From contig JAUSFM010000014.1 of NCBI GenBank assembly GCA_030651375.1, positions 1 to 64,000 of the forward strand: 64,000 nt of DNA, given 5' to 3'. Both the position numbers and the translations under genes were made by a program. Source of the stretch: Candidatus Woesearchaeota archaeon. GTDB lineage: Archaea; Nanobdellota; Nanobdellia; Woesearchaeales; UBA12501. The notes beneath the pieces were generated by a model. The model did not search any database, was not told the DNA's origin, and was given only the letters and a program-made list of their open reading frames with translations. Below, one piece after another: positions 13,700 to 49,975 of the stretch; the first letter of the stretch is position 1; the number at the start of each line of letters is the position of its first letter.

Positions 13700-14365
13700 T
13701 TATTTTTTAATTCTGACATCAGACACATAGGGTACAATTGTATTCATGCTATCACCTGACGAACCTGATCCTGCCACCAGAATTTTACTCACGGAAGGAT
13801 AACGGGCAAATGATTTTCGGCAGGTGGTATCGGCCCGCACCATGCAGAATTCGCCAAATTGCCAGCTACCGGCCGAGTAGTAATAAAAGTTTATGCGTGC
13901 AGATTCAGTGCCCGTAAAGCTTGGATCCCGATACTGCTTTAGGTCAACGGCAATTTCACGTACATTTTGCTGTGCCCCTTGAGAAAAGTCAACAATGAGC
14001 GAACGGCCAATGCGCTTCGGTGTGTTTGCGCGCTGGGCACCGCTGAATTCACAGCGATAGGTAGCTTCAGCACCACCTCGAGGATTAGCGGGGCGAGAAA
14101 ATCCAGGCTCGCATACTGGTGGTTGGCCGTGAAGAACTGCTGTGCTTTGAGTATTTGCAGGCTGTGCATTCAAAGGAAGAGCAATTGCCGCGCCGCCAAC
14201 GATTCGATTAGCATGCACCGTGACAATAGCTGGTGCTGCAGCAACAAAGCCAGTAGTGCCATCTCCTCCCGTATCTGAAAAGAGCGGAGCTAACATACCA
14301 GTTGTGTACATTCCAGTCACCGCAACAGCGGCAAGCAGAAGAAGTATAAAACGATTTGAATCCAT
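13700..14365 (-). CDS. Membrane-anchored surface protein with C-terminal beta domain
   Basis: A 221-residue protein with an N-terminal membrane helix (about residues 6-27), then a GDGTTGF motif, a Cys-containing linker and a C-terminal domain ending in IVPYVSDVRIKK. The last 90 residues resemble the C-terminal domain of the 624-residue surface protein at 29472-31346 (FYYYSAGSW...FCMVRADTTCRKSF versus LYSTSA...YCILKADQSEMTCTKNF). The leader resembles that of the protein at 18185. Function unknown; it probably faces outside. A strong AGGTGAT ribosome site precedes the ATG. Confidence 0.75.
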   Translation of the reverse strand: MDSNRFILLLLAAVAVTGMYTTGMLAPLFSDTGGDGTTGFVAAAPAIVTVHANRIVGGAAIALPLNAQPANTQSTAVLHGQPPVCEPGFSRPANPRGGAEATYRCEFSGAQRANTPKRIGRSLIVDFSQGAQQNVREIAVDLKQYRDPSFTGTESARINFYYYSAGSWQFGEFCMVRADTTCRKSFARYPSVSKILVAGSGSSGDSMNTIVPYVSDVRIKK

Positions 14366-18184: not shown

Positions 18185-18694
18185 ATGGCTGATGATACTA
18201 ATCGATACCTGCTTTCTATCGTGGCAGTGGTCGCAATAACCGGACTGTTTCTTTTGTATGGTCAGGATACTCCTACAAGTGCAGATGGCACAACCGGCCT
18301 TGCAGTAGGATACAACCCAGCATTAGGAGATGGGCCAACATTTGACGAAGAGGGCAACAAAATTTGCACCGGTCGCGTCAATGGAAATGAAATTGTCCCT
18401 GATTATATTAAGGGATGCCACGGCACGCACATGCGAATTAAGGATTGGGCAATGCTCCCCCCCGCAGTGAAGGCGTACTACAACCACAAGCAGGTGGCGT
18501 ACAAGCAAGTTGCACAAGGCAACCCTGCGTACGACTGGCCTACCGATGTAAAAGGTGCGGGCATCCGTACGGTGAAGGCATCAAAGGAAACCGGCGGTTC
18601 AGGACTGCCTGATCAAACCACAACCAACGAAGTTGAGATTGTCGAAGTGTTCGGCGCTGCCGGACAAGGACGATCAGTTTCAACGCTGGTTTAA
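18185..18694 (+). CDS. Short membrane-anchored extracellular protein
   Basis: A 169-residue protein with an N-terminal membrane helix (about 7-25), followed by ADGTTGLAV, the same arrangement as in the protein at 13700. The exposed part is hydrophilic with two cysteines (KICTG, KGCHG) and no recognised domain. The shared leader and the position on either side of smc suggest paralogy of the leader only. Function unknown. Confidence 0.7.
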   Translation: MADDTNRYLLSIVAVVAITGLFLLYGQDTPTSADGTTGLAVGYNPALGDGPTFDEEGNKICTGRVNGNEIVPDYIKGCHGTHMRIKDWAMLPPAVKAYYNHKQVAYKQVAQGNPAYDWPTDVKGAGIRTVKASKETGGSGLPDQTTTNEVEIVEVFGAAGQGRSVSTLV

Positions 18695-19842: not shown

Positions 19843-20247
19843 ATGGAACAAATCCAATACAGTGGACTGCACGATGTTGAAGAGGGTGACCGAAGAATTC
19901 TTGACAAGCTGTCAGCGGAATACTACGACAAAATCGCGCGCGAACTGAAAAATGAGACCGCGCTGCAGGTGCATATCAAGAGCTACAAGAAAATTGGCAA
20001 GCCAAAATTCTCAATCCATGTCAAGGCAATTGCGCCGACGCGCATTTTTGTCTCAACCAAGGCGCACGACTTTGATTTTGCAACGTGCCTGCACATGGCG
20101 TTTCGGGATTTGGAAACACAGATACATCACCGCCTGCACACTGATGACCAGAAACCAAAAAACATTTTCAAGCGCGGAGAAAAACCACTAACGCCTGAAT
20201 TCGCACGGCGGATTGGGCTGCACGTGAAGAATTTTTTTAGGAGATGA
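19843..20247 (+). CDS. Probable ribosome-associated HPF/RaiA-like protein
   Basis: A 134-residue basic protein whose middle (LQVHIKSYKKIGKPKFSIHVKAI) and AFRDLETQIHHRLH helix resemble the beta-alpha-beta-beta-alpha layout of hibernation-promoting factors, which bind the small ribosomal subunit. The Lys/Arg-rich tail would suit RNA contact. A TATA box (ACTTTAAATAC, 19800-19810) and SD GAGGTGAGACA support the start. The match is by pattern and remains uncertain. Confidence 0.5.
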   Translation: MEQIQYSGLHDVEEGDRRILDKLSAEYYDKIARELKNETALQVHIKSYKKIGKPKFSIHVKAIAPTRIFVSTKAHDFDFATCLHMAFRDLETQIHHRLHTDDQKPKNIFKRGEKPLTPEFARRIGLHVKNFFRR

Positions 20248-20305: not shown

Positions 20306-20380
20306 AGCGGGGTGGGGCAGCCAGGAGTGCCCGCAGGGCTCATAACCCTGAGGTCGGAGGTTCAAATCCTCCCTCCGCTA
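20306..20380 (+). tRNA. Initiator tRNA-Met (CAT)
   Basis: Acceptor AGCGGGG pairs with CTCCGCT, discriminator A. The A1-U72 pair and an anticodon stem with three consecutive G-C pairs (CAGGG/CCCTG, loop CTCATAA) mark it as the initiator. T-arm GGAGG-TTCAAAT-CCTCC. Its 3' end is duplicated 136 bases downstream. Confidence 0.95.
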
Positions 20381-21089: not shown

Positions 21090-21503
21090 ATGATGGCAGA
21101 GCAGCATTTTTATTTTGATACCTCAATCTGGATGGACATATATGACGAACGAGGGCATAATGGAGAAGTTGCGAGAAAGTTGATGGAAAAAATTGTGATG
21201 GACGATGATATTGTTCTATATTCAGATGCTATTGTTGCCGAATTGAAAAAGCTTGGCTTCTCAGAATATGAGATTAATCAGATGTTTAGTATCGCAAAGC
21301 CAGACCACATCAGGAGAGTTCAGTCAACAAAAAATCAAATTGAAGAGGCACAACGAGTTGCACAACAGAGAGATGTTCCGCGCCGTGATGCGCTTCACGC
21401 AATTCTTGCACGCGACCATGAGGCACAGCTGATCTCTCGTGACTGGGATTTTGAGAAATTGAGAGACATTACGAAAGCGAAAAAACCGGAGGATTTAATT
21501 TGA
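21090..21503 (+). CDS. PIN-domain ribonuclease, probable toxin
   Basis: A 137-residue PIN-fold protein: FDTSIWMD at the N-terminus supplies the first acidic residue, IVAELKK the second, and RRDALHAILARDHEAQLISRDWDFEKL the remaining acidic cluster. PIN toxins cut RNA. An RHH antitoxin-like gene lies on the opposite strand and overlaps its end by nine bases, so the pair is convergent, unlike the usual antitoxin-toxin operon. Start ATG at 21090 or 21093. Confidence 0.8.
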   Translation: MMAEQHFYFDTSIWMDIYDERGHNGEVARKLMEKIVMDDDIVLYSDAIVAELKKLGFSEYEINQMFSIAKPDHIRRVQSTKNQIEEAQRVAQQRDVPRRDALHAILARDHEAQLISRDWDFEKLRDITKAKKPEDLI

Positions 21504-21770
21504 CGAAAGACCAAGATTTTTTGCAAGTTCTTTGAATGTTTCTTCTCCCGCGCGGTGTATATCCGCATCCGTAATTTTTCTTCCTTTGTGTTTACCGGCA
21601 CCGTATGCCCGTTCAAGCCGAAGGAGCGCTGCCCGCTTTTCGATGTCCTTGATTTTGTCTCGAACAGCTTCGCGAATGAATTCTGTTTTTGTCGCATACC
21701 GATTTTCTTTCATGACTTTTTCTATGTCGTGGATGAAGCTCTCTTCGAAGCGGAGTGAAACGGTTTCCAT
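21495..21770 (-). CDS. Ribbon-helix-helix protein, probable antitoxin
   Basis: A 91-residue protein. METVSLRFEESFIHDIEKVMKENRYATKTEFIREAVRDKI is a clear RHH DNA-binding domain (beta strand 1-7, two helices), with a basic middle and an acidic C-terminal helix suited to binding the PIN partner. It is similar in plan to the RHH gene at 39839. The TATA-like run near 21785-21800 on this strand is close to the start. Confidence 0.8.
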   Translation of the reverse strand: METVSLRFEESFIHDIEKVMKENRYATKTEFIREAVRDKIKDIEKRAALLRLERAYGAGKHKGRKITDADIHRAGEETFKELAKNLGLSSN

Positions 21771-21830: not shown

Positions 21831-24800
21831 TTAAAATTGCCGAAGCCCTTCTCTCGGCGGCTGTTCTTTTTTCTCGAACACTGACTTTATTTTGTCCCAC
21901 ACGTCAGAGAGTTTTTGCTTGAAGCCGCCTGCGGCCACTGCACTGGCAGTAGTGTTCGCTGCCGGTTTTTGGACAATCCCCATCTCGCTGAATGTTTTCT
22001 CAATCAACTTTGATGGAACATCATACTGTGCAAGGTGTTTCGCCAACATCTCTTTGGAATAGCCGCGCTGGCCGTAGTATTTGATGTAGTCAATCATCTT
22101 TTGTTTTTTGTAATCAGGAATTGCCTCGAGCTTTTTGTTTTCGTAATAGTTGTAGCCGGCAAATCCGCCGCCACCGAGCACCGCAAGTGCCGCGAGTGTT
22201 ATCAAAATATACAGCCAGATGTTGGGCCCTTCTTTTAATTCAGGAAGCGGCTGTTCGCTCGGCCGCGCAGGATAGGGTGATTCTGGCGCAACTTCTTCAA
22301 CTGGCTGAACCGGAAGTGGTGCATATTCTTGCAACGGCATTGATGGCGCGCCGCTCGGTGCGAGAGCGACACCACTTGTATCAAGGGGGGATGACGCTAC
22401 GGGTGTTTGGCCGCAATCCTGCGGGCAGTTGAGCTGGTTTTCAGCGAATGCAGATTGGCAGAGTCCGTCGCCACAGATGACTTGTCGACTGGCACGTCTA
22501 CGACCGCCTCCACTTCCTCCACCACCGCCACCGCTTCCTCCGCCGCCTCCACCACCGCCTCCTCCACTGCTACTGCTTCCGGTGTCTCCACTTGTTGCAG
22601 CGGCTGAAGCAGCAGTTTCTGTGACGCAGCGTCCGGCAGCAGCATCGCAGCCGCGCGGACAGACAACTGGCTCTTGCCGGTAGCCCTCGGGCTGCGCAGC
22701 ATCGCACGTAAACGTAAACAAAATATCAGTGCTCTGGTCACTGCATCGCGGAGTTAATGACTGTATCTGGCCAGTGGAATCCCGCGCCATGACTGAGCCA
22801 ATAGAAGGAGATGAACATTGTTGGTCTGGTGGAAGAACTGCACTTGCTCCAGCACTGCCTCCTCCGCCTGCAGGCTGGCCAGCAGCCCCTGGACTAACTG
22901 CGCACGCGCCATTCTGACAACCGTTCGGGCATTGGAACGGCTGGAGCGCAGCAGCAGTTGCACTGACACATTCGTATTGAGTAAGGCCAGTGGAATCACA
23001 GGTGTCGCGCTGCGTCGCAAGCTGGAAGGTGGCAGTATCAAAATAAATAGCGCGCCCTTTTTTCTCAGGAACATTTTGAGCGTCGCTGTCGTAACAGTAG
23101 GATGGATTAAACACCGCGTCAAAGCAGGCTGCATTTTCTGGAGCGCCGAGCGCTGCTTTTGCCGCAGCATCGTCGAGGTTGCGTAGTGATTCAACTTTTG
23201 CCTGACACTCTGCATCAAGTCCCGCTGGGATGCAGCTGCCGAGGAATGAGCGAATGTGATCGAGGATAGGGCGTGAGGAATGTTGTGCAAGACGGATGTT
23301 GAAGGTAATTTGTTTGCATTCTTCGAGTGCAGGGTCTTCAGCATCAGCGCAGACGGAATCGGTGCATACCTGATCGCCAGGACATTCGAAGTCGGTGGCG
23401 CACGACTGGCCACCTGCTGCAGGAACAACAGGTGCACCTGCACTGCCAGCAACACACGCGCCGGCTTGGCATTGGTCGCATACTGCTGCTGCTTCACTCA
23501 TCGCACCAAGTGCATCACACGTGTAGCTCACGGTGCGGCAATTTTCTCCGGTGCACGCCGCGGTTGGAGTAAATGAAGCAATAGTTCCCGAGAGGAGGAA
23601 TTGTTTGAGCGCAAGGGGAACGAGTTCAGGTTCTGCAAGCCGCGCTGCCTGACACTGTCCGTTGACGCAGCCATTCGCACATTCCAGTGCTTGCTCTTCA
23701 ACAAAGTTTAATTGCGCGTTGCACGCGTACTGAACAGCCCTGCAATTTCCTGCAGCACAGTTTTCAACAGGAGTGAATGAGGGAAGATTGCCAAGAAGTA
23801 ATTGTTTCACGTCGTCAGGAAGCAGGACGGGAGCAGGGAGAAGCAATGCAGCAACGGCATTGGCACAATGGTTATTGACACAAACTAAATCAGCTGCGCA
23901 GTTAACATCAACTTTACAAAACGTGTTCAGAGCACGTTCGGCATCTTCGATGCATGCATTGAGATTCTCGCACACTTCATTCACACCACATGCTGCGTCA
24001 TTATTTTCACAGCCAATGGGTGGAACAGCACCAATTTCAAGAGAAGAAACACCGGCAGTTGGCACCTCTTCAATGCCATTAAAAATGTACGAGCCGCTAA
24101 AAGAATTTTGCGCGCCGAACGCGTTGTCAGGAACAACAACGGTGTACGTGATATCCATGTCAGGAACACTTCCAGGTGGAAGTGAAATTCCAGGAATCAA
24201 ACCCCAACGGATTTGTCCATTTAGAAACGCGCCATTGTTTGAAATAACAGGATCAACATTCCATCCTGCTGGAGGTGTTTCAGTGATGAATAACGATTGA
24301 GCAGGATTGTTTTCATCGGCGTCAACATGGAGCCGAACCGTGACTCTGCTGTTGGGTGATGCTTGTGCTGGATCAAATGCACGGACAACGGTTCCTGCAG
24401 AATGCACGAGTGCACACACGCCATTAATGCACTGCGCGTTTTCAACGCAATCAGCATTTGCTTGGCAAGCGCCGCCGACGGAAATTGTTCCAAAAGATTG
24501 GGCGGGCTCTGCAGCAGGAGGTTCGGGAACAGGGGGAGGCACTTCAGGTGGTGGCACTGCAGGAGGCTCGGCAGCTGGTTGCGCAACACATCTTCCTGCC
24601 TGACAAAGATCACTTTGGCACATACGATTACTCAAGCACTGCGCACCGTCTATGGTGCGTGGAACACAAATTAATTTATCAGGACTGCAAAAAGCGGCAT
24701 CATCACAGGGTTCATGTGTTTGAACATTGCATGCTGCAGCAACTCCTGCTGCGGGTTGTTGAGGTACCGGCACCGCGCCAATAGAGAGTATGTTGCTGCC

Positions 24801-25223
24801 GATAATATTTGCTTCAGCGCCAACGCCGAAAAGATATGTTCCAGCAAACTGATGCCTGCTTTGGTCGAGCGCACCAACTGGTGCATGCGCAGTGTATGTA
24901 ATGGTCATGTCGGGAACATTTCCAGGAGGAAGTGAAAGTCCAGAAATCAGTCCCCAGCGGATTTTTCCATTTTGAAACGCGCCGTTGTTTGAGATACCAT
25001 CCGCAGTCCATCCTGCAGGAAGCGTTTCAGTGATGAAGAGTGAATTTTCAGGAGCAGCAGGATCCGCTTTGACAACGAGATTAACAACCGCTGCGCCGCC
25101 CGGAGGAATGGTATCTTGAGAAAAGCCACGTGAAACAGCTGAAACTGCTGAAACAAGGGGGAGCATAAGAAGTATTGTAAGAAGTGCAAATAGGGTTATC
25201 ACGCTCAATTGTTTTTTTCCCAT
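21831..25223 (-). CDS. Large cysteine-rich cell-surface protein with C-terminal membrane anchor
   Basis: About 1130 residues from the ATG at 25223 (an in-frame ATG at 25247 overlaps the upstream gene). Signal peptide at residues 1-28; two copies of a beta-sandwich repeat with the shared core NNGAF-NG-IRWGLI and LPPG-VPDM (about residues 30-145 and 275-400); multiple disulfide-rich modules; a poly-Ser/Gly stretch; an ICGDGLCQ...CPQDCG module; a membrane helix near residue 1035 (IWLYILITLAALAVL); and a cytoplasmic tail of about 90 residues (KKQKMIDYIKYYGQRGYSKEML). Likely an adhesin or S-layer-associated protein. Last gene of the operon. Confidence 0.8.
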   Translation of the reverse strand: MGKKQLSVITLFALLTILLMLPLVSAVSAVSRGFSQDTIPPGGAAVVNLVVKADPAAPENSLFITETLPAGWTADGISNNGAFQNGKIRWGLISGLSLPPGNVPDMTITYTAHAPVGALDQSRHQFAGTYLFGVGAEANIIGSNILSIGAVPVPQQPAAGVAAACNVQTHEPCDDAAFCSPDKLICVPRTIDGAQCLSNRMCQSDLCQAGRCVAQPAAEPPAVPPPEVPPPVPEPPAAEPAQSFGTISVGGACQANADCVENAQCINGVCALVHSAGTVVRAFDPAQASPNSRVTVRLHVDADENNPAQSLFITETPPAGWNVDPVISNNGAFLNGQIRWGLIPGISLPPGSVPDMDITYTVVVPDNAFGAQNSFSGSYIFNGIEEVPTAGVSSLEIGAVPPIGCENNDAACGVNEVCENLNACIEDAERALNTFCKVDVNCAADLVCVNNHCANAVAALLLPAPVLLPDDVKQLLLGNLPSFTPVENCAAGNCRAVQYACNAQLNFVEEQALECANGCVNGQCQAARLAEPELVPLALKQFLLSGTIASFTPTAACTGENCRTVSYTCDALGAMSEAAAVCDQCQAGACVAGSAGAPVVPAAGGQSCATDFECPGDQVCTDSVCADAEDPALEECKQITFNIRLAQHSSRPILDHIRSFLGSCIPAGLDAECQAKVESLRNLDDAAAKAALGAPENAACFDAVFNPSYCYDSDAQNVPEKKGRAIYFDTATFQLATQRDTCDSTGLTQYECVSATAAALQPFQCPNGCQNGACAVSPGAAGQPAGGGGSAGASAVLPPDQQCSSPSIGSVMARDSTGQIQSLTPRCSDQSTDILFTFTCDAAQPEGYRQEPVVCPRGCDAAAGRCVTETAASAAATSGDTGSSSSGGGGGGGGGGSGGGGGGSGGGRRRASRQVICGDGLCQSAFAENQLNCPQDCGQTPVASSPLDTSGVALAPSGAPSMPLQEYAPLPVQPVEEVAPESPYPARPSEQPLPELKEGPNIWLYILITLAALAVLGGGGFAGYNYYENKKLEAIPDYKKQKMIDYIKYYGQRGYSKEMLAKHLAQYDVPSKLIEKTFSEMGIVQKPAANTTASAVAAGGFKQKLSDVWDKIKSVFEKKEQPPREGLRQF

Positions 25224-25228
25224 GAACA

Positions 25229-26365
25229 TCAACCTTGGTGTATCCACACGGTAACTGCATTTGCAACATCAGGCATGGTGATTGATTCATCGCCGCCCAC
25301 CCATTTTTGGACATACGACTCAATTTCAGGCATTGAGATTGCACCATCACAATTCGAATCAGCGCGAGTATTCTCATTGGCGCAGGCAGCAGCAGGAATG
25401 GGAGGAGGCGGAATTGTACATGCATCTTTAAGACACATGAAACCGAGTTGTTGCATGCAATCTGCATCTTCATCACAGGCGAGACCATCGCCGCCTGCCT
25501 CTTGACAGGTAAACAATTCAGGATGGCCAACTTCATCAATGCTGCCCCTGCATACAAGACCTGCCTGACATTCTTCATTCTTTTGACAGGAAGTAGTAGA
25601 TGGTTTCAACACAGGAGCAGGTGGAACAGGTGGCTCTGCTTCAACATTTGGAGGAGGTATCGTACATGCATCGTTAAGACATATGAAACCACGTTGTTGT
25701 ATGCAGTCAGCATTTTCGTCACAGGCAAGGCCATCACCGCCTAGCTCTTGACAGGTAAATAATTCAGGATGACCCACTTCATCAATACTGCCACGGCAAA
25801 CAAGACCTGCCTGACATTCTGCATTCTTTTGGCAAGAAGTGGTAGCGGGTTTGAGCACAAGAGCTGGAACAGGATCAGGCGCGGGAACTGGTGCTGGCTC
25901 GACAAGCGGCGCCGGCGCCTGCACCGTCACTTGGGTATCACCGGCAATCGGCACACTCACTTGCATACTTTCAAAAATGTAGGTGCCGCTGAACGGGTAT
26001 ACCGCAGCTTTTTGCGGCGCGCGCACGATGTAGCCGTAGGATATATTTTGCACTGGCACCTTGGGGTCAAGACCATCAACAATAGTGATGCTTAATAGGT
26101 TGCCATCCTGCGTGAGACCACCTGCATTAACAATCGTCCAACCGACGGGAACCGTTTCATCAATAATATAGGCGCCTTCAATACCGACTTCGTTAACCGT
26201 GAGCTGTACTTTAATTTCAGCGCCCGGTGCAACGATTGGTGAAGAGAAACTGCGGGTGACTGTTGAGCCGACTACAATCGGTGCGAGAGGCGCAGCAGTG
26301 ATGAGCGGTACCACTAACAAAAACAAGACTATGCTCAAGATGGTTATTGTTTTTTGTTTTGCCAT
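25229..26365 (-). CDS. Secreted cysteine-rich protein with dockerin-like EF-hand tail
   Basis: 378 residues. Signal peptide at 1-24, then a beta-sandwich similar to those of the downstream protein (TVTRSFSSPIVAPGAEIKVQL...ETVPVGWTIV). Two near-identical 82-residue cysteine-rich repeats follow (SCQKN-ECQAGLVCRGS...). The C-terminus (RADSNCDGAISMPEIESYVQKW) matches the calcium-binding loop D-x-N-x-D-G-x-I-x3-E of dockerin/EF-hand modules. No membrane anchor is visible, so it may attach through the dockerin-like tail. Confidence 0.8.
   Translation of the reverse strand: MAKQKTITILSIVLFLLVVPLITAAPLAPIVVGSTVTRSFSSPIVAPGAEIKVQLTVNEVGIEGAYIIDETVPVGWTIVNAGGLTQDGNLLSITIVDGLDPKVPVQNISYGYIVRAPQKAAVYPFSGTYIFESMQVSVPIAGDTQVTVQAPAPLVEPAPVPAPDPVPALVLKPATTSCQKNAECQAGLVCRGSIDEVGHPELFTCQELGGDGLACDENADCIQQRGFICLNDACTIPPPNVEAEPPVPPAPVLKPSTTSCQKNEECQAGLVCRGSIDEVGHPELFTCQEAGGDGLACDEDADCMQQLGFMCLKDACTIPPPPIPAAACANENTRADSNCDGAISMPEIESYVQKWVGGDESITMPDVANAVTVWIHQG
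25367..25858 (-). repeat. Intragenic tandem duplication, period 246 bp
   Basis: Two consecutive units (25858-25613 and 25612 to about 25367) encode the 82-residue cysteine-rich repeats of the dockerin-tailed protein. Most residues and many silent positions are shared, which points to recent duplication. Confidence 0.8.
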
Positions 26366-26382
26366 GGTGGTTGTGATGAGGA

Positions 26383-27426
26383 TTATTTTTTACATTTAGG
26401 ATCCTTCTTGTCTTTACGCCATTTTTTGATGGTCTTCATCAAATCTTCTGCAGTCTGTTTTTTTCCTTTCCCATGCCCTTCTTTAATGTGACTCTTTAAG
26501 GTGTTGTCGTCGTCACATCCAGCAACAGGTGGAGCAACAGCAGCAGGTTGTTTAGCAACAACGTCTACTTGTGGGCACACGCCATCCGTGCAGGTCGTTG
26601 CGCAGGGTGTAGCTACTTTTTGTATGAGATTCAGATTCTGTTTGTCGCAGGAAAAGGCAACAACGGAACATCCCGGACCAGTGCACGTCGGCACGGGAAG
26701 CTCGACGCTGTGCTGGCGCACATAGTCAAGAAGTTCTGCCGGCAAAAAAGATTGGCCGATAGATGGCGAGGGAGAAATAACAGCAGGTGCAGGAGCGGGT
26801 ACACGTTGTGCTAATGCTTGAGCTTGAGCACCAAGCCCTCCAAGACCGGGAAGGGACGATGCTGCTGGTTGCGCTGGTTGTTGCGCAGGAGCAGGTGCGG
26901 AAGCACCAGCACCGGGAAGATTTGCGGGAACTCTGAGACCGGCAAGTGGATTCGGTTGCGGTGCTGGTTGTGGTGCAGGAGCTTGTGCGCGCTGAACCGC
27001 AGCAGCAACACCTGCTGCGACGCCGCCAGGCAAAGAAGCACCGGGTAGTGCAATAGGTGCATCTGAGCAAAGATTACCAATGCAGCTGTTCGATGTACAG
27101 TTGGTATTTGCAGTACACGCCTCACCAACATTTTTCTTGGGTTGTACATTAAGAGGGGGAAGGTTTCTCAACGCGCCGAGATTGGGCGGCGCAGCCAGCG
27201 CACCACTCAATGTGTCGAGTGCGCCATCAGTCAATCCGACGCCGTATGCTACTCTGCCGGTCAGCGCGTTGATTTCATCCTGCCAGATAACATACAATGC
27301 AAAGAGAGAGATAATGAGGAGAAGCGGAACAAAGTATTTTCCGAGCGGATGTTTTTTAGGATGCTGCGCATGCTTGTCAGGCGCGTGGTTCACATTATGG
27401 TGGTGGTGCGTGTGCTGTTGCTTCAT
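26383..27426 (-). CDS. Anchored Pro/Ala-rich surface protein with His-rich cytoplasmic tail
   Basis: 347 residues. The first 28 contain about ten histidines (QQHTHHHHNVNH), followed by a membrane helix (about 31-48), an ALTGRVAYG motif at about 54-62, a Cys module (CTANTNCTSNSCIGNLC), a Pro/Ala/Gln-rich linker (about 140-230), another Cys module and a Lys-rich C-terminus. Its start overlaps the upstream gene's stop by four bases. The exposed linker and modules resemble those of its operon partners. Function unknown. Confidence 0.75.
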   Translation of the reverse strand: MKQQHTHHHHNVNHAPDKHAQHPKKHPLGKYFVPLLLIISLFALYVIWQDEINALTGRVAYGVGLTDGALDTLSGALAAPPNLGALRNLPPLNVQPKKNVGEACTANTNCTSNSCIGNLCSDAPIALPGASLPGGVAAGVAAAVQRAQAPAPQPAPQPNPLAGLRVPANLPGAGASAPAPAQQPAQPAASSLPGLGGLGAQAQALAQRVPAPAPAVISPSPSIGQSFLPAELLDYVRQHSVELPVPTCTGPGCSVVAFSCDKQNLNLIQKVATPCATTCTDGVCPQVDVVAKQPAAVAPPVAGCDDDNTLKSHIKEGHGKGKKQTAEDLMKTIKKWRKDKKDPKCKK

Positions 27427-29426
27427 GGGGTACCTGCGCGAGCGCCGCCGCTAGTAATGACCTCTTTGATCGTGTCTTTCACCATTTTTTCAGCGTTAAA
27501 TGCAAGAGGATCCTGAAGCTGTTGAGAAAGATCATGCGCACGTGCTCTGGACGGGGAAATCGGATCCAATGTTGCACCTTTTATTGATAATTCTTTGACC
27601 GTGAAAACATCGTGCATTTGTGCAAACGGCACTCCAGCATCCGGAGTCTTACCCGTGAGAATATAGAAAGCTGCAGTTCGACCGCTTGTAAATTTCGATT
27701 TTGGAACAGCAACAGCGATGGTGGTGTCCTGATTTTCAGCGGTAACACCATCATTGAGACGGTACCAATAGCTTGGTGCATTTCCTATATTAAGACCGAT
27801 AAGATACGAACGGAATTTTCCCGCTTTGAAATCCGCATTGTTTTTATCCTTAATTCCGTTGGTCTTCAGGATAAAGGTAAGATCGCCTTGAACATCGCTA
27901 AAGACCGGAGCAAACGTGATTTCTTGAACAACAACCGCAGAGCTAGCGCCAGAACCGAGCGCAAGATTTGAGGCGAGAACAACTGGCAGCGGTGCGGCAC
28001 ACTTAGTGGCAACACAATTATTTGAAAGGCAGAATTTGTTTTGGTTACAGACAGCGCCGTCAGCGCGCTTGTTGATACAGGTTGCAGTAAGAAGAAGCTC
28101 GCAGTATTTTGTTGCCGGACACTCAGCATCTGCACGACATGTTACCGCAGCAGGCTGCGCTTGCTGCACGGGCAATGCACATTTTTTGGCCACACAGTTT
28201 TGAGACATACAATCAGTATTTGTTTCGCAGTATGCATCTTTTATTGCCTGTTCAAGGCACGCTTTTGGTTGGCCAAGCACTGTTTTGCGGCATACTTTTA
28301 TTGGGAGACTACGAGGACACGCGAGATTTGAGTCGCATGCATCACGAGCGGGCTGGGCAGGAACAGGTGCAACAACGGGAGCAGGTTGCGGAGAAGGAAC
28401 AACAGGCGCTCGTGCAGGAACAGGAATACTAGGAACTAGTGCAACAGCCGGTGCAGGAGCTGGTGCTGGACGAGGCAGATTGGATACTAATTGTTGCTGC
28501 GCAGGAACAGGTGGAGAAAGAGCAGGAGAATTTTGAACAGGTGCAGGCGAACGAGCTATTAAAGGAGAACCGACAACAGGTGCAGCAGCGCCACTAGCGC
28601 CCCCTACATTTATTATGGGCTGGACAAGCGCATTAGCACCTTGTGCAATGTCGACACCAGTGCCGCCGGCGACAAGAGCGTTTTTGCCAGCGACAACTGG
28701 ACTTGCTGGAGAAACAAGAGGAGAAGCGCCAGCGGCCTGCACAACTGCAGCAGGAGGAGGCGGGGGAGGAGCAGGTCGATCAGAACAAATACCGGATTCT
28801 CCAAGGTGAGGGTTACAAAACCCGGATGAACAATGCACATCCCGACCACACGGACCACCATTTGGCTTGAGCTGAGCTGGAGCAGGAACAGGTTGTTCCG
28901 CTGCTTGCCCGCACACACCATTGGCACATGCACAATCTTGAGTTACCAACCGCACATTATTTCCTTCACACGTTCCAAATGCAACACGTTGTGATTCTGC
29001 AACAACAACAAAGTTGTCGTCGACACACGACCGTGAAAAGGTGGTTGTTTTTCCTTTGATGGTAGATTGAACTTGATTATTTTGACTGGCACAAGAATCG
29101 CCCAACAACAGAAGGTTCAGCGGTTGGCCGAGCAATGAAACAGCATCAGCGCTGGACGAACAGGTCGTTTGTTTTGGAACAGAATTTTCTTCGCCGACCG
29201 TAAACCCGCCAACTGAAACAGGGATAACACCAGTCACTCCTGCTACGCCAGCAGCACATTTCAGGTTGTCTGCAACACTGATTGCGTGGCCAACAATACC
29301 AAAGTCTTTCAGCACGAAAAAACTGCCGGCAAAAATTGCAAGAATAGCAACTACCACGAACAGCGAATTCCTCTTTTCACGTGCAGCTAATTCTGCGTGC
29401 ACCTGTTTTACTTTGTCGTCTATCAT
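27423..29426 (-). CDS. Anchored cysteine-rich surface protein with beta domain
   Basis: 667 residues: a charged cytoplasmic start, membrane helix at about 21-39, GIVGHAIS motif at about 43-50, Cys-containing region, long Pro/Ala/Val-rich linker (about 215-370), four short cysteine modules of the type CRADAECPATKYCELL...CINK (about 370-480), and a C-terminal beta-rich domain (about 500-640, FAPVFSDVQGDLTFIL...). The modules resemble small Dickkopf/EGF-like disulfide knots. Second gene of the operon; function unknown, likely adhesion or envelope structure. Confidence 0.75.
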   Translation of the reverse strand: MIDDKVKQVHAELAAREKRNSLFVVVAILAIFAGSFFVLKDFGIVGHAISVADNLKCAAGVAGVTGVIPVSVGGFTVGEENSVPKQTTCSSSADAVSLLGQPLNLLLLGDSCASQNNQVQSTIKGKTTTFSRSCVDDNFVVVAESQRVAFGTCEGNNVRLVTQDCACANGVCGQAAEQPVPAPAQLKPNGGPCGRDVHCSSGFCNPHLGESGICSDRPAPPPPPPAAVVQAAGASPLVSPASPVVAGKNALVAGGTGVDIAQGANALVQPIINVGGASGAAAPVVGSPLIARSPAPVQNSPALSPPVPAQQQLVSNLPRPAPAPAPAVALVPSIPVPARAPVVPSPQPAPVVAPVPAQPARDACDSNLACPRSLPIKVCRKTVLGQPKACLEQAIKDAYCETNTDCMSQNCVAKKCALPVQQAQPAAVTCRADAECPATKYCELLLTATCINKRADGAVCNQNKFCLSNNCVATKCAAPLPVVLASNLALGSGASSAVVVQEITFAPVFSDVQGDLTFILKTNGIKDKNNADFKAGKFRSYLIGLNIGNAPSYWYRLNDGVTAENQDTTIAVAVPKSKFTSGRTAAFYILTGKTPDAGVPFAQMHDVFTVKELSIKGATLDPISPSRARAHDLSQQLQDPLAFNAEKMVKDTIKEVITSGGARAGTP

Positions 29427-29471
29427 AAGGGATACGAGATACGCATTAACGGGTAACGGTGATAGTTCCTT

Positions 29472-31346
29472 TCATGATTGGATGCGTTCTAAACACATTT
29501 TTTGTGAACCGAAACGAGGGAGGATACAGGCAAAGCCTTGTTGACATTCAGCATCAGCATTACACGCAACACCGGGGCCCTTAAGCTGTGGAGGGTCATT
29601 ACCACCAGCAGCGCCACCGGGAGCAGCAAGCTGACCAAGAACACGAATATCAGTCACGTAGGGTGTTGGACTATTTGCTCCCCAACTTGCACGTGCAACC
29701 ATCACGTAACCAACGGACACCGGAGTGGCAAAGTTTTTGGTACAGGTCATCTCAGATTGGTCGGCTTTTAATATGCAATAGGTTGCCCACGTCCAAGCAG
29801 AGGGTTTATCAAACGTAGCGCTGGTACTATAGAGTAGGTGATAACCAACATCACCGGCACCACTATTAGCCAGTTTTTTAACATCAACGGCAATGGACTG
29901 AACCGAAGAAACAACCGAGGGTAGTTTGGCAATGAAATGCCTTCCTACCGTCTTAAAATTACCAGGTCCAACCTCAAAGTGACAAAAGTTTGCATCTTTC
30001 CTTGAAAGCTTGAAATAATCCCTACAAAAACCAAGATCACCATACCCTGCACTGAATGGAAGTTTTACAAATTCGGATGGTGCGTCAGTAACGGCGGGAA
30101 AGGTGAATGGTGAAAAGGGAACCGCACCAGAAGCAAGCAATGTTGGACGAATCATCTGATCGCCGCCGCCAGCAAGTAGTGCAGCCTGAGCACACACATT
30201 ATTCTGGCAGCTGAACCCCGGAGCGCAGATGGCGTCCACGCCACCACACATTTGACCGGTTGTTCCAAAGCATTTCTTGCCTTGACCAGCAACTTTTTCG
30301 ATACAAACCGCATTTTCAAGGCATTCGCTGTCTTCTACACAGGCAACCTCGATAAATTTGAGGCAACGCTTGCCCGTGCCTTCTGGTTTTTCCGCGCAGC
30401 GCTGGAATTGTTCGCAGTCAGCATCAGCACGACAGGCGGGTGCAGAAATGCACACATCACCCTGACAAACCAATCCGGCATTACAGCTCTTGAGCCCTGC
30501 GATATTTGTTGCATCAAATAAGCAGGCACCACCGAGCTCGCCTGGTTGCGGACCTTGAGGAGCAGGATTATTTTCTGCAGGCACCTCATTAACAGGAGGA
30601 TTATTATCGACTACAATATTCGGTTGTGCACCCGGAACCTCGCATCGTCCGCCGACACAATTCAAACCAGGCCCACATTCATCAGCAAAATTTTGCGGGC
30701 ACGCAGAACCGGAAAAAGTGATGTAACAGCGTTGCAGAAGCCCGTTGTTTTTATCGACGCAGGAACGCGATGTACCGTCGGGAAGCGCGTTGCATACATC
30801 ATTAGAATCACAGTGCACCAAATTTTGGCAGTCAGCACCATTGGCGTCTGCGCAGTTACAATTAATGAGATTAACTTGGACATCATTTCCAGAACAAACG
30901 TGTTTGACGAGTGTATCTGAATGGGCGATGGTGTTTAATTGAGCATCGGCACAGCCGCTTACCAATCGCTGCGTCTGGCCTGATTCTGTTGTTAGTGTGA
31001 TGACACCATCGGCGCCCTGTGCGCATTGTTGGCCGAGCAGCAGGAAACTTCGCAACTCGCTAGCCGGCCGCTGGATGGGCACGCCGCACGTGCTTGCTTT
31101 GGCTACTTTTTCACCCAGTTGAAACGGCCCGGCGCTGCCGAGGAGCATCACGCCGTCGGTGCCGCCCGCAACAACGCTGCATTCATCCGCCGGACGGGCA
31201 ATTGCCTTGCCGGTAATGGATGATGGATCTAAAACAGAATAAATACCAAATGCGATAACGAGAAGCGCAACAAGGACAGCGGGGTCTTTTAAGCGGTCTG
31301 CTAACCGGAACGTTCTATCTCCCTCTGACCCTCTTTTATTGTTCAT
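29472..31346 (-). CDS. Anchored cysteine-rich surface protein, first gene of operon
   Basis: 624 residues: membrane helix at about 25-43, then SSITGKAIARP, many disulfide modules (CRADADCEQFQRCAEKPEGTGKRC, CVEDSECLENAVCIEK, CGGVDAICAPGFSC), and a C-terminal beta domain (about 470-570) that resembles that of the protein at 13700 and ends in TPYVTDIRVLGQ, followed by one more Cys module. It begins the five-gene minus-strand set reaching to 21831, with gaps of 45, -4, 17 and 5 bases, so one transcript is likely. Confidence 0.75.
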   Translation of the reverse strand: MNNKRGSEGDRTFRLADRLKDPAVLVALLVIAFGIYSVLDPSSITGKAIARPADECSVVAGGTDGVMLLGSAGPFQLGEKVAKASTCGVPIQRPASELRSFLLLGQQCAQGADGVITLTTESGQTQRLVSGCADAQLNTIAHSDTLVKHVCSGNDVQVNLINCNCADANGADCQNLVHCDSNDVCNALPDGTSRSCVDKNNGLLQRCYITFSGSACPQNFADECGPGLNCVGGRCEVPGAQPNIVVDNNPPVNEVPAENNPAPQGPQPGELGGACLFDATNIAGLKSCNAGLVCQGDVCISAPACRADADCEQFQRCAEKPEGTGKRCLKFIEVACVEDSECLENAVCIEKVAGQGKKCFGTTGQMCGGVDAICAPGFSCQNNVCAQAALLAGGGDQMIRPTLLASGAVPFSPFTFPAVTDAPSEFVKLPFSAGYGDLGFCRDYFKLSRKDANFCHFEVGPGNFKTVGRHFIAKLPSVVSSVQSIAVDVKKLANSGAGDVGYHLLYSTSATFDKPSAWTWATYCILKADQSEMTCTKNFATPVSVGYVMVARASWGANSPTPYVTDIRVLGQLAAPGGAAGGNDPPQLKGPGVACNADAECQQGFACILPRFGSQKMCLERIQS

Positions 31347-31419
31347 GTGTCCTTTAAAAATAATTGGCTTTCCCTTTTATATATTTTGTGGTGAAAAACG
31401 GAGCTGTCGTGCGTGGTGT

Positions 31420-31665
31420 GTCGTGGGCAGTAGGTGATGAACATCAATTAACATCATGAACGGGAACGGCAAGAAACGAACTGTTAAAGAAATAGGCGAT
31501 GCTGCGGCACCGTCAATCACTTCATCAAATGCGAAAATTCGGCGCCGAATTTTCGCGACGCTGGGAAAAACAGAATGTGCGGACAGCATCAGTATCTTGC
31601 TCGTTTCTTGTTTGTTCTGCATAATCCGTTTTGGTAGTTGCTGATTCAGAAGCGTAAAATAAACC
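31420..31665 (-). repeat. Palindromic repeat copy D (inverted)
   Basis: Reverse-complement copy of the family seen at 19465, 35525 and 44595. The central 26-bp perfect palindrome is at 31531-31556, built on GCGAAAATTCGGC/GCCGAATTTTCGC; the flanks ACGGCAAGAAACGAACTGTTAAAGAAATAG match the right side of copy A on the other strand. It lies between the surface-protein operon promoter and tRNA-Ser. Confidence 0.8.
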
Positions 31666-31676
31666 AAGTATGGGTA

Positions 31677-31688
31677 AATTTTATAAAC
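31677..31688 (+). promoter_or_regulatory. TATA box ahead of the truncated tRNA-Ser copy
   Basis: AATTTTATAAAC is about 30 bases upstream of the duplicated tRNA-Ser 5' end at 31717, and is stronger than anything directly ahead of the intact tRNA. Confidence 0.5.
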
Positions 31689-31716
31689 CACCACCCCACA
31701 ATCACACTCATCAACT

Positions 31717-31734
31717 GCCGCAGTCGCATAACCC
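31717..31734 (+). pseudogene. Truncated 5' duplicate of tRNA-Ser
   Basis: Positions 31716-31734 are identical to 31871-31889, covering the acceptor 5' strand and part of the D-arm of tRNA-Ser. The copy ends abruptly in the D-loop, where hairpin element sequence begins. Confidence 0.8.
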
Positions 31735-31870
31735 AAGACAACCTTTTTTTGCTTCGCAAAAAAAGCTTGGGCAACGTACGACTCCTCACTTCGTTCGGAG
31801 TCGTTGCGCTCCGCGCAAAACGACATAAAACTTAAAAAGCAACGATTAAAACAAGTATAATTAATCATAA
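31735..31870 (+). repeat. Hairpin-rich element between tRNA-Ser duplicates
   Basis: About 136 bases. A perfect stem TTTTTTTGC-TTC-GCAAAAAAA at 31744-31764, an 8-bp stem ACGACTCC/GGAGTCGT at 31778-31804, then GCGCTCCGCGCAAAACGA and a promoter-like AAAACTTAAAAAG at 31827-31839. Positions 31776-31838 almost duplicate 12271-12333 after tRNA-Pro. Confidence 0.75.
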
Positions 31871-31871
31871 T

Positions 31872-31985
31872 GCCGCAGTCGCATAACCCGGTATTGCGCA
31901 GGATTGCTAACGCAGACATGAAAAATGTCTCCCGTAAAGATCCTGTTTCCGCAAGGATATCCCGGTTCAAATCCGGGCTGCGGCG
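31872..31985 (+). tRNA. tRNA-Ser (GCT) with 30-base intron
   Basis: Acceptor GCCGCAG/CTGCGGC with discriminator G; anticodon stem CAGGA/TCCTG once a 30-base intron at about 31910-31939 is removed, giving loop TTGCTAA (anticodon GCT). The intron follows position 37, the canonical archaeal site, and carries the hairpin AGACAT-GAAAA-ATGTCT expected for bulge-helix-bulge splicing. A long variable arm and T-arm CCCGG-TTCAAAT-CCGGG fit class II tRNA-Ser. Confidence 0.88.
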
Positions 31986-32037
31986 TATATTTTTTAACAA
32001 CAAACATTAAAAAGGAAAGACACCATTAAAAAGAGAC

Positions 32038-34044
32038 ATGAAAAAAATAATGTATCTTATTTTGTTTATTCTCGTCTCACTTTCAGCCACCGCCCTCAAC
32101 GACACTGTCATCTACCAGAGCCAGTATATCATCGTTGACACAGATTTTTTTACCGCGCTCCAGATTGAGCAGACCGGGCCGCGCGCAACAATTGAAGACC
32201 TCGCTGCGGAGATTGCCTTTTTTCCCATTCAAACAGAGCATCAGCGCATACTAAGCAGCGGCCATAGCCCGCTGCCAAAAACAATTGATGAGCAGGAGCC
32301 TGCCATGCGATTCTCATGGAACAAGCCGTCAGGAACACTTCCGATTCACATCAAAAACCGCGTGCAGGTTGAGAGCACGCCGAAAAAAATTCGTGAAAAA
32401 ATTTCGTTCCCACTTGCCGGTCTGCCGGACGACATACAAAAATTCACCCAGCCGGCAGCCATCATCGACAGCAACGCTGATATTGTCCGGCTCGCATCTA
32501 CGCTTGCGCAAGGACAGGACGACACACTGGTTGTCGTCGACAATATCGCAGTGTGGGTAACCGCAAACATCAAATATAATCTCAGCTCTGCTGCGGCTGA
32601 TGCAACTGAAAAAGCAAGCACCGTGCTCCGCACCCGCGAAGGTGTGTGCGATGAATTAACCGCGCTGTTTATTTCAATGCTCCGTGCGCTGGGCATTCCA
32701 GCACGCTTTGTGGCCGGCATTGCGTATTCAAATTCGCCGGAACTTAATGGTTGGGGTCCGCACGGCTGGACAGAAGTGTACTTTCCAAACTACGGCTGGG
32801 TGCCCTACGACGTGACGTACGGCCAGTACGGATTTGTTGACGCAAGCCATATCGTGACGCGCTATTCCGCTGACTCGGAAAAAATAAAATCAAAATTCAC
32901 CTGGAAAGGCCGCGACACAACCGTCACAGTGCGCGATTTCTCGACCAAAGCAACCGTTCAAGAATACGGCCCGCTGCGCGAACCGCACATAGCACTGACC
33001 GCAGAGCCATTCAAAGGCAGCGTCGGGTTTGGCTCCTACAATCTGGTGATTGCGCACGTGCGAAATCTGCTGGATTATTACCAGCCAGTTGACGTCCATG
33101 TATCAAAAACAACCAAGCTGGAGATTATGGACGAGAGCGCGCCGACAGAAAATGCAAAATACAAAAAACATATTCTCCTTGCGCCGCACGAAGAAAAAAT
33201 TTTGTTCTGGACTATCAAGACAAGCAGCGAATTAGAAAACAACCTTATCTACACGTTCCCGGTTTCAGTGTACACGCCGACGGGAATGGAAGCAGTAACT
33301 GAATTCAAAGCAGTAAAAGACGGCATTCAGGTGCCGCGTGAACGCATTGAAAAAACAATGCAGGGGCTCGCGCCGGCGGACAACAACATGCTGACGCATG
33401 GCTTGATACTGAACTGCGCCAGTGCCAAACAAACGTATCAAGAAGATGAGCCGGTAGCGATTTCGTGCGCCATCAAAAATAACGGCAACACGTTTCTCGG
33501 ACAGGTCAATGTGTGCGCCGACGGAAAACAATGCCAAACCATTGATGTGGGCATTGCGCAAGAGCAGCAGCTGCACTTCGAGCTTACTGGCGCGCACGAC
33601 GCGGGAGAAAACGCCGCCACGATTACTGCGATGAGTGACGACGCGGTTGCCAAAGCATCAGTTGGTTTTTTTCTTCTTGACAAGCCGCTGCTGAAAATCG
33701 AAGCGGCTGAAGCGCCCGCGACGGTGCACTATGGCGACGAATTCACCGCAACACTTCGGCTCACCAAGGGTTCGTCAACAGCGCCGCAAAATGTTCATGT
33801 AACGGTTCACGGAGAATTGGTTGCGCAGGAATTTGACCTCGGCACACTCGACAGCAGCCTCGACCTCACGCTGGCAATGCAGGGAAGTGACTTGCAGCCA
33901 GACACGAATGTGTTTACCGTGACCGCGGCGTTTACCGATGAAAAAGGAACGCCGTATGAAACAACAAACACATTCACTGTGACACTGGTTGACGTGACGG
34001 CATGGCAGCGGATAAAAATATTCGTGAAATCGCTGTTCACCTAA
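32038..34044 (+). CDS. Secreted transglutaminase-like domain protein
   Basis: 668 residues with a signal peptide (about 1-19). A transglutaminase/cysteine-protease-like core has the triad Cys204 (REGVCDEL), His242 (PHGWTEVYFP) and Asp258 (WVPYDVTY). The C-terminal half is a series of beta-rich Ig-like domains (EEKILFWTIKTSSELENNLIY..., DEPVAISCAIKNNGNTF...). It may cleave or crosslink envelope proteins. No membrane anchor is obvious at the C-terminus. It follows tRNA-Ser by 52 bases. Confidence 0.85.
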   Translation: MKKIMYLILFILVSLSATALNDTVIYQSQYIIVDTDFFTALQIEQTGPRATIEDLAAEIAFFPIQTEHQRILSSGHSPLPKTIDEQEPAMRFSWNKPSGTLPIHIKNRVQVESTPKKIREKISFPLAGLPDDIQKFTQPAAIIDSNADIVRLASTLAQGQDDTLVVVDNIAVWVTANIKYNLSSAAADATEKASTVLRTREGVCDELTALFISMLRALGIPARFVAGIAYSNSPELNGWGPHGWTEVYFPNYGWVPYDVTYGQYGFVDASHIVTRYSADSEKIKSKFTWKGRDTTVTVRDFSTKATVQEYGPLREPHIALTAEPFKGSVGFGSYNLVIAHVRNLLDYYQPVDVHVSKTTKLEIMDESAPTENAKYKKHILLAPHEEKILFWTIKTSSELENNLIYTFPVSVYTPTGMEAVTEFKAVKDGIQVPRERIEKTMQGLAPADNNMLTHGLILNCASAKQTYQEDEPVAISCAIKNNGNTFLGQVNVCADGKQCQTIDVGIAQEQQLHFELTGAHDAGENAATITAMSDDAVAKASVGFFLLDKPLLKIEAAEAPATVHYGDEFTATLRLTKGSSTAPQNVHVTVHGELVAQEFDLGTLDSSLDLTLAMQGSDLQPDTNVFTVTAAFTDEKGTPYETTNTFTVTLVDVTAWQRIKIFVKSLFT

Positions 34045-45933: not shown

Positions 45934-46899
45934 TTAGATTTTCTGCTCAATGCCCACAAGAATGTTTTTCTGGTAGTCAAGCAGCCGCTGTGCCGCGCGC
46001 TTTGTTTCAGCGGGTGAATACCCGCCGACGTACAGCACCATAGTTTTTTCTGATGTCATAAAGAGCTTAATGAGCCCTTCACCGGGCTTGAAAATCTGGC
46101 ACTGTCGGGGGTTGGTATTGAAGAACTGCTGAATCTTGAATAATTCTGCGGCTGCCTTGTTATCGCAGGGGTTGCCGATGACAATATAGTCTTTTGCACC
46201 GAGCTGTATTTCGCTGGCCAACATACCTTTGCCGACTGAGAGCCCTTCGCTCGCAATAGTGATGAGAATGTGTTCGCCGACCACCACATCTTCCGGTGGC
46301 GCCTTGTCGCCGACCACAACGGAAAAGCCTTTCGCAAGGCCGGGAAAGTTTATGAGATTGAGTTTTTCTTGGCTGGAAAAGCTGGTAATGCTGCAGCAGT
46401 CTTGGAAGCACGTGTTGCATGTTTCGCCATCTTTGCAGAGCGTGTCGCCGCAGCACTGTGAATTGAGTTTTGCAACGCAGACATTATTTTCACACGCGCC
46501 GGCTTTGCACACGCCGAGATCTTTTGCTGTGCAGCTGCCGCAGTCCAGCGGGCAGGTGCACTCGTTTTCATTCGGGCTGCACACGACGTCGCCGCAGGCA
46601 GCTTGCAGTTCGTACTTGTCGCACACGCCGGTATTGTCGACGTCAAGGCAGCACTCGTTGTTGATGATTTTTTGAGGAAGCGTGCAAGTCACAATAGTTT
46701 CAATGACACCGGTGCCTTGCTCTTCAATGAGTTCTGGTGAAGAAGGAATCGGCGCAGGAGGAACAGAAACGACATTGCTGGTCGTGCCGGAATTGCCGAC
46801 AAGGTCAACTGAGCAGCCAGTGAGAAATGCCAGAAAAACAAATACACTAACAATGATACGCCAGTTCAGAGTACGCATAGTGCGCATAGTGTACCTCAT
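45934..46899 (-). CDS. Cysteine-rich lipoprotein
   Basis: About 321 residues (starts at 46899, 46887 or 46878). Signal peptide with a lipobox-like FLTGC, so probably lipid-anchored. Two modules of the type CGDVVCSPNENECTCPLDCG and CCGDTLCKDGETCNTCFQDCC, the same C-G-D-x2-C...DC pattern as in the surface protein at 21831. The C-terminal 150 residues (KDYIVIGNPCDNKAAAE..., TMVLYVGGYSPAETKRAAQ) resemble the S-layer/COG1361-associated fold seen in archaeal envelope proteins. ATGA overlap with the small gene upstream. Confidence 0.78.
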   Translation of the reverse strand: MRYTMRTMRTLNWRIIVSVFVFLAFLTGCSVDLVGNSGTTSNVVSVPPAPIPSSPELIEEQGTGVIETIVTCTLPQKIINNECCLDVDNTGVCDKYELQAACGDVVCSPNENECTCPLDCGSCTAKDLGVCKAGACENNVCVAKLNSQCCGDTLCKDGETCNTCFQDCCSITSFSSQEKLNLINFPGLAKGFSVVVGDKAPPEDVVVGEHILITIASEGLSVGKGMLASEIQLGAKDYIVIGNPCDNKAAAELFKIQQFFNTNPRQCQIFKPGEGLIKLFMTSEKTMVLYVGGYSPAETKRAAQRLLDYQKNILVGIEQKI

Positions 46900-49636: not shown

Positions 49637-49975
49637 ATGGCCCGCGGCAGAAAACCGAACAGCATCGTCCGCCAGCACATGGTTGACATCCTGGCCTGCC
49701 TCGGAAGCGCCAGTGGATATGATATCTACAAAGTGCATCGCGAGCTGTTTCCGAAGTGTACGCTCCGGTTAATGTATTATCACCTGAAAAAAGGAGTGGT
49801 GTTGGGAGAATTTATTGTTGACAAAATACAAAAAGTCGAGGGAACATATTCATGGGGGCCGCTAACGGAAAAAAAAATGTATGCAATCGGGCCAAAGGCG
49901 CATCCCAATCCTGAAAAGCGCGTCAAAGAATATATCACCACATTAAAAAAAGAGGAAGCACATGGACAACGGTAA
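49637..49975 (+). CDS. Small winged-helix-like protein
   Basis: 112 residues: VRQHMVDILACLGSASGYDIYKVHRELFPKCTLRLMYYHLKKGVVLGEF is a winged-helix pattern of the PadR type, followed by WGPLTEKKMYAIGPKA (wing) and a Lys/Glu-rich tail. TATA ACTATTTAAACG at 49605-49616. It overlaps the start of the cupredoxin gene by 14 bases, suggesting coupled translation and a link to that protein. Confidence 0.65.
   Translation: MARGRKPNSIVRQHMVDILACLGSASGYDIYKVHRELFPKCTLRLMYYHLKKGVVLGEFIVDKIQKVEGTYSWGPLTEKKMYAIGPKAHPNPEKRVKEYITTLKKEEAHGQR

Follow-up and report, generated by a model that had tools for sequence, protein, structure and literature searches.

Five co-directional minus-strand open reading frames (ORFs), here called genes A to E, fill positions 21831-31346 of a 64,000-nucleotide stretch from a Candidatus Woesearchaeota genome (contig JAUSFM010000014.1; the window) and encode 3,154 aa in sum. 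Our analysis suggests, with a probability of about 0.6, that they constitute an operon whose products build an adhesin-like complex, stabilised by disulfides, on the woesearchaeotal cell surface, and that this operon is accessory and evolves fast. The source genome (23 contigs totalling 1.30 Mb, with a listed completeness of 100%) was examined by searches and through a 224-kb sample of stretches. An earlier sequence-only reading of the same DNA had described five adjacent minus-strand genes with short gaps or overlaps, and coordinates, junctions and a single TATA box all agree with this. The gap between A and B is 45 nt, B and C overlap in an ATGA and C and D are 17 nt apart; the overlap of D and E is 19 nt when E is read from its GTG start codon and 1 nt when the in-frame ATG at 25229 is taken. 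A TATA-like box lies before gene A (Table 1), and none was noticed in the 40 nt preceding B, C and D. The RHH gene downstream of E has a TATA box of its own and the operon therefore consists of A to E.

Cysteines make up 3.5-6.4% of the five proteins and their spacing is far beyond chance. We counted 17 non-overlapping modules of the form C-x(5-7)-C-x(4-5)-C-x(4-10)-C across A-E, compared with a mean of 0.27 (maximum 4) after residue shuffling and a mean of 8.5 (maximum 14 in 1000) after permuting the segments between cysteines. This bears out the claim of disulfide-type modules in exported proteins. The eukaryotic connection that had been drawn from them found no support: a Pfam scan of A-E gave Dickkopf_N and EB matches below threshold (20.3 against 25 and 19.3 against 24.3 bits) and a DUF7107 score that was also under the cut-off, and such modules are frequent in this archaeal order. 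The modules are thus alike to these families in four-Cys spacing, but none reaches a curated cut-off and the archaeal ones keep a spacing of their own. The proteins also have parts in common with each other. A and B are related at the N-terminus (residues 24-181; BLASTP 4.9e-8), D and E contain the same beta-sandwich (E 3e-9), and C and E the same six-Cys module (BLASTP 8.5e-5). The beta-sandwich of E is duplicated, with a 108-nt unit 83% identical between first and second copy, and D carries an internal duplication. Both events are recent and indicate that remodelling of the genes continues, which would suit surface proteins exposed to diversifying pressure. That the region is unrelated low-complexity or misassembled sequence could be argued from its Pro/Ala- and Gly-rich linkers and from a spurious 208-aa ORF at 31377-32003. 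The ordered Cys spacing, the confidently predicted fold of the D/E domain and syntenic homologues in other genomes make this a negligible prospect, and we ruled out a low-complexity origin.

Contig C9 carries two VKOR genes side by side (E 2.4e-21 and 1.9e-17), and the VKOR cut-off is passed by 18/60 genomes of the order. Since the genome has these two tandem disulfide oxidases, extracellular disulfides in A-E are plausible. As a separate observation, a cupredoxin-like gene adjoins the tandem pair (L163 8350-9910) and a second cupredoxin, membrane-anchored and with a Cys module, is encoded in the window at 49962-50960 (PF13473, 4.9e-14).

The domain common to D and E is predicted to be a beta-sandwich, in agreement with what had been read from the sequence: the AlphaFold model of D has a predicted local distance difference test (pLDDT) score of mostly 89-98 and a CLIPPER-like fold. 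Among the Foldseek matches listed, the top TM-score belongs to 9ifr, a CLIPPER/DUF11 domain of a fibrillar adhesin (E 5e-6, TM-score 0.73, root-mean-square deviation 3.3); YcnI and TRAP subunits are comparable to it by E-value, and cohesins follow at lower TM-score (0.55 for Archaeoglobus fulgidus 2xdh). The modelled domain thus appears to have the CnaA-like fold that characterises CLIPPER domains, and by predicted fold there would be one such Ig-like stalk domain in D and two in E, whereas A-C carry Cys modules instead. By sequence the cut-off of PF01345 (DUF11) is not reached (18.1 against 24.6 bits for E) and no member of sequence set A8 matches it at E <= 0.01. A sequence search of the PDB matched only the Gly-linkers of E, nothing in D and, with the beta-sandwich profile, nothing useful. 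The profile itself has matches in 39/242 genomes of the order, and strong ones in about a dozen of these. The isopeptide triad of CLIPPER domains is Lys-Asp-Asn, though it is not universal in the family. When we aligned the two motifs ourselves, an invariant Arg (Arg38 of D) stood at the apparent isopeptide Lys position, and no Asn is conserved in the final strand of the D/E domain. Given this Arg, an isopeptide bond of the CLIPPER type is not expected, and the cluster suggests that disulfides, not isopeptide bonds, stabilise the archaeal CLIPPER-like stalk.

The C-terminal domain of A would, with moderate confidence, be a jelly-roll of the discoidin/CBM32 kind. Its closest compact Foldseek matches are CBM32, discoidin and lactadherin C2. 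The model, built from 4 sequences, has a mean pLDDT of 64.7, with values of 65-91 (~80 on average) over the last 110 residues. A paralogue lies in the same genome at 13703-14215 and, across 242 genomes, we found 2 copies here, 2 in the genus UBA10192 and one weak match in genome G206. The likeness to discoidin, F5/8-type C and CBM32 domains is one of predicted fold; unlike them the domain has no sequence-level match, with no Pfam discoidin or CBM32 hit for A or its paralogue, and it is confined to essentially two genomes. We regard it as the best candidate for a binding tip. An adhesive role becomes likelier because a CLIPPER/DUF11-like stalk fold in D/E occurs together with a discoidin/CBM32-like fold ending A.

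Fibrillar adhesins with CLIPPER (DUF11, PF01345) stalks are one known group that offers a comparison. A-E resemble them in being exported, long and modular, with stalk domains of a predicted Ig-like, CnaA type and a domain that may form the tip, and 9ifr is the best match by TM-score. They differ in scoring below the Pfam cut-off, in the invariant Arg in place of the isopeptide Lys, in being split over five genes, in a rigidity that probably comes from disulfides and in an archaeal transmembrane anchor with a cytoplasmic tail.

Hydropathy showed one N-terminal hydrophobic segment in each of A-E. A second, C-terminal segment is found only in E (residues 1012-1030), where it is followed by a charged tail, just as had been proposed for one member of the group. 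With signal or transmembrane segments in all five and a C-terminal transmembrane helix in E, the cluster has the surface anchor and the export of long multidomain proteins that define fibrillar adhesins. A module in the E tail is present in 55/60 genomes of the order. It is common to many membrane proteins of the order, with no Pfam family found for it, and it also occurs on small transmembrane proteins beside surface-protein genes (L027, L137).

In A, B and C a G-x-[AV] motif lies 5-14 residues past the hydrophobic segment (ITGKAI, IVGHAI and LTGRVA, respectively), and [T/V/S/A]-G-x-[A/V] is likewise found shortly after this segment in other exported proteins of the genome, such as TTGFVA, TTGLAV and ITGMAY in 13700-14365, 18185-18694 and 49962-50960. 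Four more cases, TSGQAV, VAGQAI, VAGQAL and LAGRAF, occur at locus L123. We counted the stricter form [TSAV]GxA[ILVFY] in 148 proteins of other genomes: the 20-residue bin at the transmembrane end held 7 occurrences, 4 of them from one operon, and the later bins, up to 195 residues, held 11 in sum. The motif is possibly a lineage-wide cleavage or sorting signal. Signal peptidase sites follow a -3/-1 rule, which G-x-[AV] fits, and since it does so the N-terminal segments of A, B and C may be cleaved rather than serve as anchors. Of the three N-terminal anchors proposed earlier, the hydrophobic segments are thus confirmed, while their anchoring function is uncertain.

D ends in an EF-hand loop and a further helix, and C carries a helix-pair-like tail at residues ~303-340 that resembles it and had previously been overlooked. 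The tail of D had been called dockerin-like, a description we do not retain: it holds one EF-hand loop and a second helix rather than the two duplicated calcium-loop F-hands of dockerin type I, and we rejected dockerin and cohesin membership since this genome has no Pfam match to either (PF00404, PF00963). These tails bear on another interpretation, an extracellular platform for polymer binding or degradation of the non-cellulosomal cohesin/dockerin kind, in which EF-hand tails would dock into the beta-sandwiches and polysaccharide would be bound, for nutrition, by the discoidin-like domain. The cohesin-like side of the D/E domain (2xdh), the helix-pair tails of D and C and the true Pfam cohesins in 12/118 genomes of the order are in its favour, yet with neither a Pfam dockerin nor a cohesin in this genome, no catalytic domain detected in A-E and a single EF-hand loop in the D tail we find it quite improbable. 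The resemblance to non-cellulosomal cohesin-dockerin modules, such as those of A. fulgidus, lies in the logic of a beta-sandwich and an EF-hand/helix tail, although here the partner of the tail is only putative.

The cluster occupies a variable site. An S30AE/HPF-like gene (19843-20247) bounds the interval on one side and a transglutaminase-like gene on the other. In close relatives (L180-L183, L197) this interval measures 442-876 bp and holds tRNA-Met and tRNA-Ser(GCT) with no gene of at least 120 aa, compared with 11,794 bp in the window and 8,383 bp in UBA10192 (L179). In the latter two the Cys-rich genes lie between both tRNAs, divergent from the transglutaminase-like gene. The short gap in close relatives, against 11.8 kb here and 8.4 kb in UBA10192, thus identifies the A-E cluster as an accessory island. 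Neither this tRNA-flanked insertion nor the partial homologous cluster in another genus formed part of the sequence-only reading. Near the island edge we observed att-like remnants: a 19-nt copy of the 5' end of tRNA-Ser(GCT) (31871-31889) at 31716-31734, 155 bp from the tRNA gene, and in UBA10192 a 23-nt copy of the 3' end, ~100 bp away (L179 9217-9456). Among the ORFs between the tRNAs no integrase or other mobility gene was recognised, and with tRNA-fragment repeats present but no integrase the island may or may not stem from a mobile element.

The position of the cluster also helps to judge whether A-E make up an S-layer-like coat crosslinked by disulfides, or decorate one, and have no specific part in adhesion. 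The many Cys-rich secreted proteins around the order, the modules common to A-E, which suggest lattice-like packing, and the transmembrane stalk and tail of E would suit such an envelope layer. A coat would however be conserved, whereas the cluster is accessory and missing at this site in close relatives, and the C-terminal domain of A occurs in essentially two genomes; we therefore hold it to be unlikely.

A partial homologous cluster exists in UBA10192, and a six-gene operon at L123 is parallel in architecture. In UBA10192 (L025/L179) a D-like protein of 673 aa has a beta-helix (PF13229, E 1e-11), Cys modules and a tail with the same SMPE motif as D. An E-like protein of 1428 aa and 100 Cys, with a C-terminal transmembrane segment and tail, follows. 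D and E are thus kin to proteins of a second genus at the same tRNA-flanked site, which differs from ours in the beta-helix of the D-like protein and in having no A-B-C; an A-like protein is on a different contig (L026). The operon at L123 (G177) belongs to a different family. Several of its proteins have an N-terminal hydrophobic segment and G-x-A, two carry helix-pair tails and one is a beta-sandwich protein; its last gene encodes a signal peptide, a C-terminal transmembrane segment and the tail module. Added TSP3 repeats and W-rich tails set it apart from A-E. A contig scan with peptide seeds from D found no relatives because the family evolves too fast for short seeds. Most weak matches to E in relatives trace to its Gly-rich stretch, to Cys modules of a common type or to the tail that is widespread in the order, and we do not count them as orthologues.

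The operon layout, the repeated modules, the insertion site and the kinship of D/E with a second genus are established here, and the folds are predicted; from these we infer that the proteins assemble, bind glycan or protein and adhere to a host or to other cells. A-E would be exported by Sec and then oxidised outside the cell, probably by the two VKOR-type enzymes of the genome. E would be a stalk fixed by its C-terminal membrane helix and cytoplasmic tail, with its two CLIPPER/DUF11-like domains and Cys modules pointing outward, and D, which has the same domain, may pack on it. The EF-hand and helix tail of D is a candidate calcium-dependent docking element; assembly through the tails of D and C is a guess. 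A, B and C would be tethered, or released, via their N-terminal hydrophobic segments and bear Cys-module arms, with A presenting a discoidin/CBM32-like tip for adhesion. Several points weigh against an adhesin-like complex. The C-terminal domain of A reaches TM-scores of only ~0.4-0.5 to known folds in a 4-sequence model, the two helices of the D tail have a pLDDT of only ~60, no domain of A-E passes a Pfam curated cut-off, and discoidin-like and Ig-like folds are shared by non-adhesin proteins such as enzymes and matrix proteins.

The sequence-only reading had gone further and suggested a possible host-attachment apparatus in a host-dependent DPANN archaeon, which in its specific form would belong to an obligate episymbiont. 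A largely symbiotic lifestyle is predicted for Woesearchaeota (PMC8421398), and in nanohaloarchaea the operon SVXNc_0798-0813, with LamG, adhesin-like and MSCRAMM-like surface proteins, has been proposed for host recognition (PMC10266531). Along with the adhesin-like folds and the variability of A-E this lends the proposal some credit, but the same modules could serve self-aggregation, biofilm formation or attachment to minerals, and we consider it possible though doubtful. DPANN operons of large surface proteins for proposed host recognition are already known (PMC10266531). A-E are alike in being a DPANN operon of several large surface proteins and differ in having Cys-rich modules with CLIPPER-like and discoidin-like domains in place of LamG or MSCRAMM. 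An incomplete literature search gave no paper joining DPANN with cysteine-rich, disulfide-stabilised surface proteins. A bolder form of the adhesin-like complex, which we advance tentatively and think rather unlikely in all its parts, would be an adhesion complex of several subunits, armoured by disulfides and specific to Woesearchaeota, that is swapped in and out at a hot spot between tRNA-Met and tRNA-Ser(GCT) and in which EF-hand/helix tails dock onto CLIPPER/cohesin-like domains and the two-genome tip domain sets the partner cell. The cluster provides concrete candidates for cell contact in Woesearchaeota, with the C-terminal domain of A as tip, D/E as stalk and the tails of D and C for docking. 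All of them map to a variable, tRNA-flanked site that lends itself to comparison between relatives.

Table 1. Positions of the A-E genes, their parts and flanking features in the window
Feature	Position	Strand	Remarks
Gene A	29472-31346	-	624 aa, 40 Cys; N-terminal hydrophobic segment, ITGKAIA after it, 8-Cys domain common with B, five or six 4-Cys modules, discoidin-like beta-sandwich (predicted), last 4-Cys module
C-terminal beta-sandwich of A	29640-30149	-	predicted fold nearest discoidin/CBM32
Gene B	27423-29426	-	667 aa, 28 Cys; N-terminus paralogous to A, Pro/Ala linkers, 4-Cys modules, C-terminal region of unassigned fold
Gene C	26383-27426	-	347 aa, 12 Cys; His-rich cytoplasmic N-terminus, hydrophobic segment, one 4-Cys and one 6-Cys module, tail
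Gene D	25229-26365	-	378 aa, 18 Cys; signal peptide, CLIPPER/DUF11-like beta-sandwich (predicted), two near-identical double 4-Cys modules, EF-hand and helix tail
Beta-sandwich of D	25913-26266	-	pLDDT mostly 89-98 (AlphaFold)
Internal duplication in D	25404-25867	-	218-nt units, 84% identical, spacing 246 nt; recent
EF-hand loop DSNCDGAISMPE	25325-25360	-	single canonical loop, D tail
Gene E	21831-25247	-	1138 aa, 56 Cys; signal peptide, two CLIPPER/DUF11-like domains (predicted), 4-Cys and 6-Cys modules, Gly-rich linker, C-terminal transmembrane segment, cytoplasmic tail
First beta-sandwich of E	24774-25148	-	profile match
Second beta-sandwich of E	24027-24401	-	duplicate of first
C-terminal transmembrane helix of E	22158-22214	-	hydropathy
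Cytoplasmic tail module of E	21981-22112	-	L..YI......G.......L...G; 5 copies in this genome
TATA-like box AAAATATATAAAAG	31374-31387	-	~34 nt before gene A; read from sequence
tRNA-Met	20306-20380	+	distal island edge; orientation opposite to all matching relatives
tRNA-Ser(GCT)	31871-31986	+	probable intron; proximal island edge
Transglutaminase-like gene	32038-34044	+	secreted protein, core neighbour; Cys204/His242/Asp258 invariant in 6 aligned sequences

The transglutaminase-like gene next to the island was considered as a part of the system and rejected, since 69/79 genomes in the relatives set carry it, whether Cys-rich genes adjoin it or not; we use it as a landmark. The named records closest to it are Candidatus Woesearchaeota, mostly groundwater metagenome-assembled genomes. 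Cys-rich exported genes lie within 2 kb upstream of it in 8/51 cases and downstream in 1/49 (Fisher p = 0.03, a value that ignores the relatedness of the loci). At five loci of other Woesearchaeota (L186, L192, L200, L217 and L229) the divergent gene upstream of it encodes a type IV pilin-like N-terminus (KKRAQAAIEYLL...) followed by long Cys-rich repeats.

Beyond the other end of the operon a PIN-domain gene (plus strand, Pfam PIN 8.4e-11) and a VapB/RHH-like gene (minus strand) are convergent within 21090-21770, their 3' ends overlapping by 9 bp, an arrangement that differs from the usual same-strand VapBC order. Elsewhere in the window, 45934-46899 encodes a lipoprotein-like Cys-rich protein with 23 Cys and a weak match to an S-layer outer domain (E 0.087), and this protein has a homologue in UBA10192 (L025 16432-17403).

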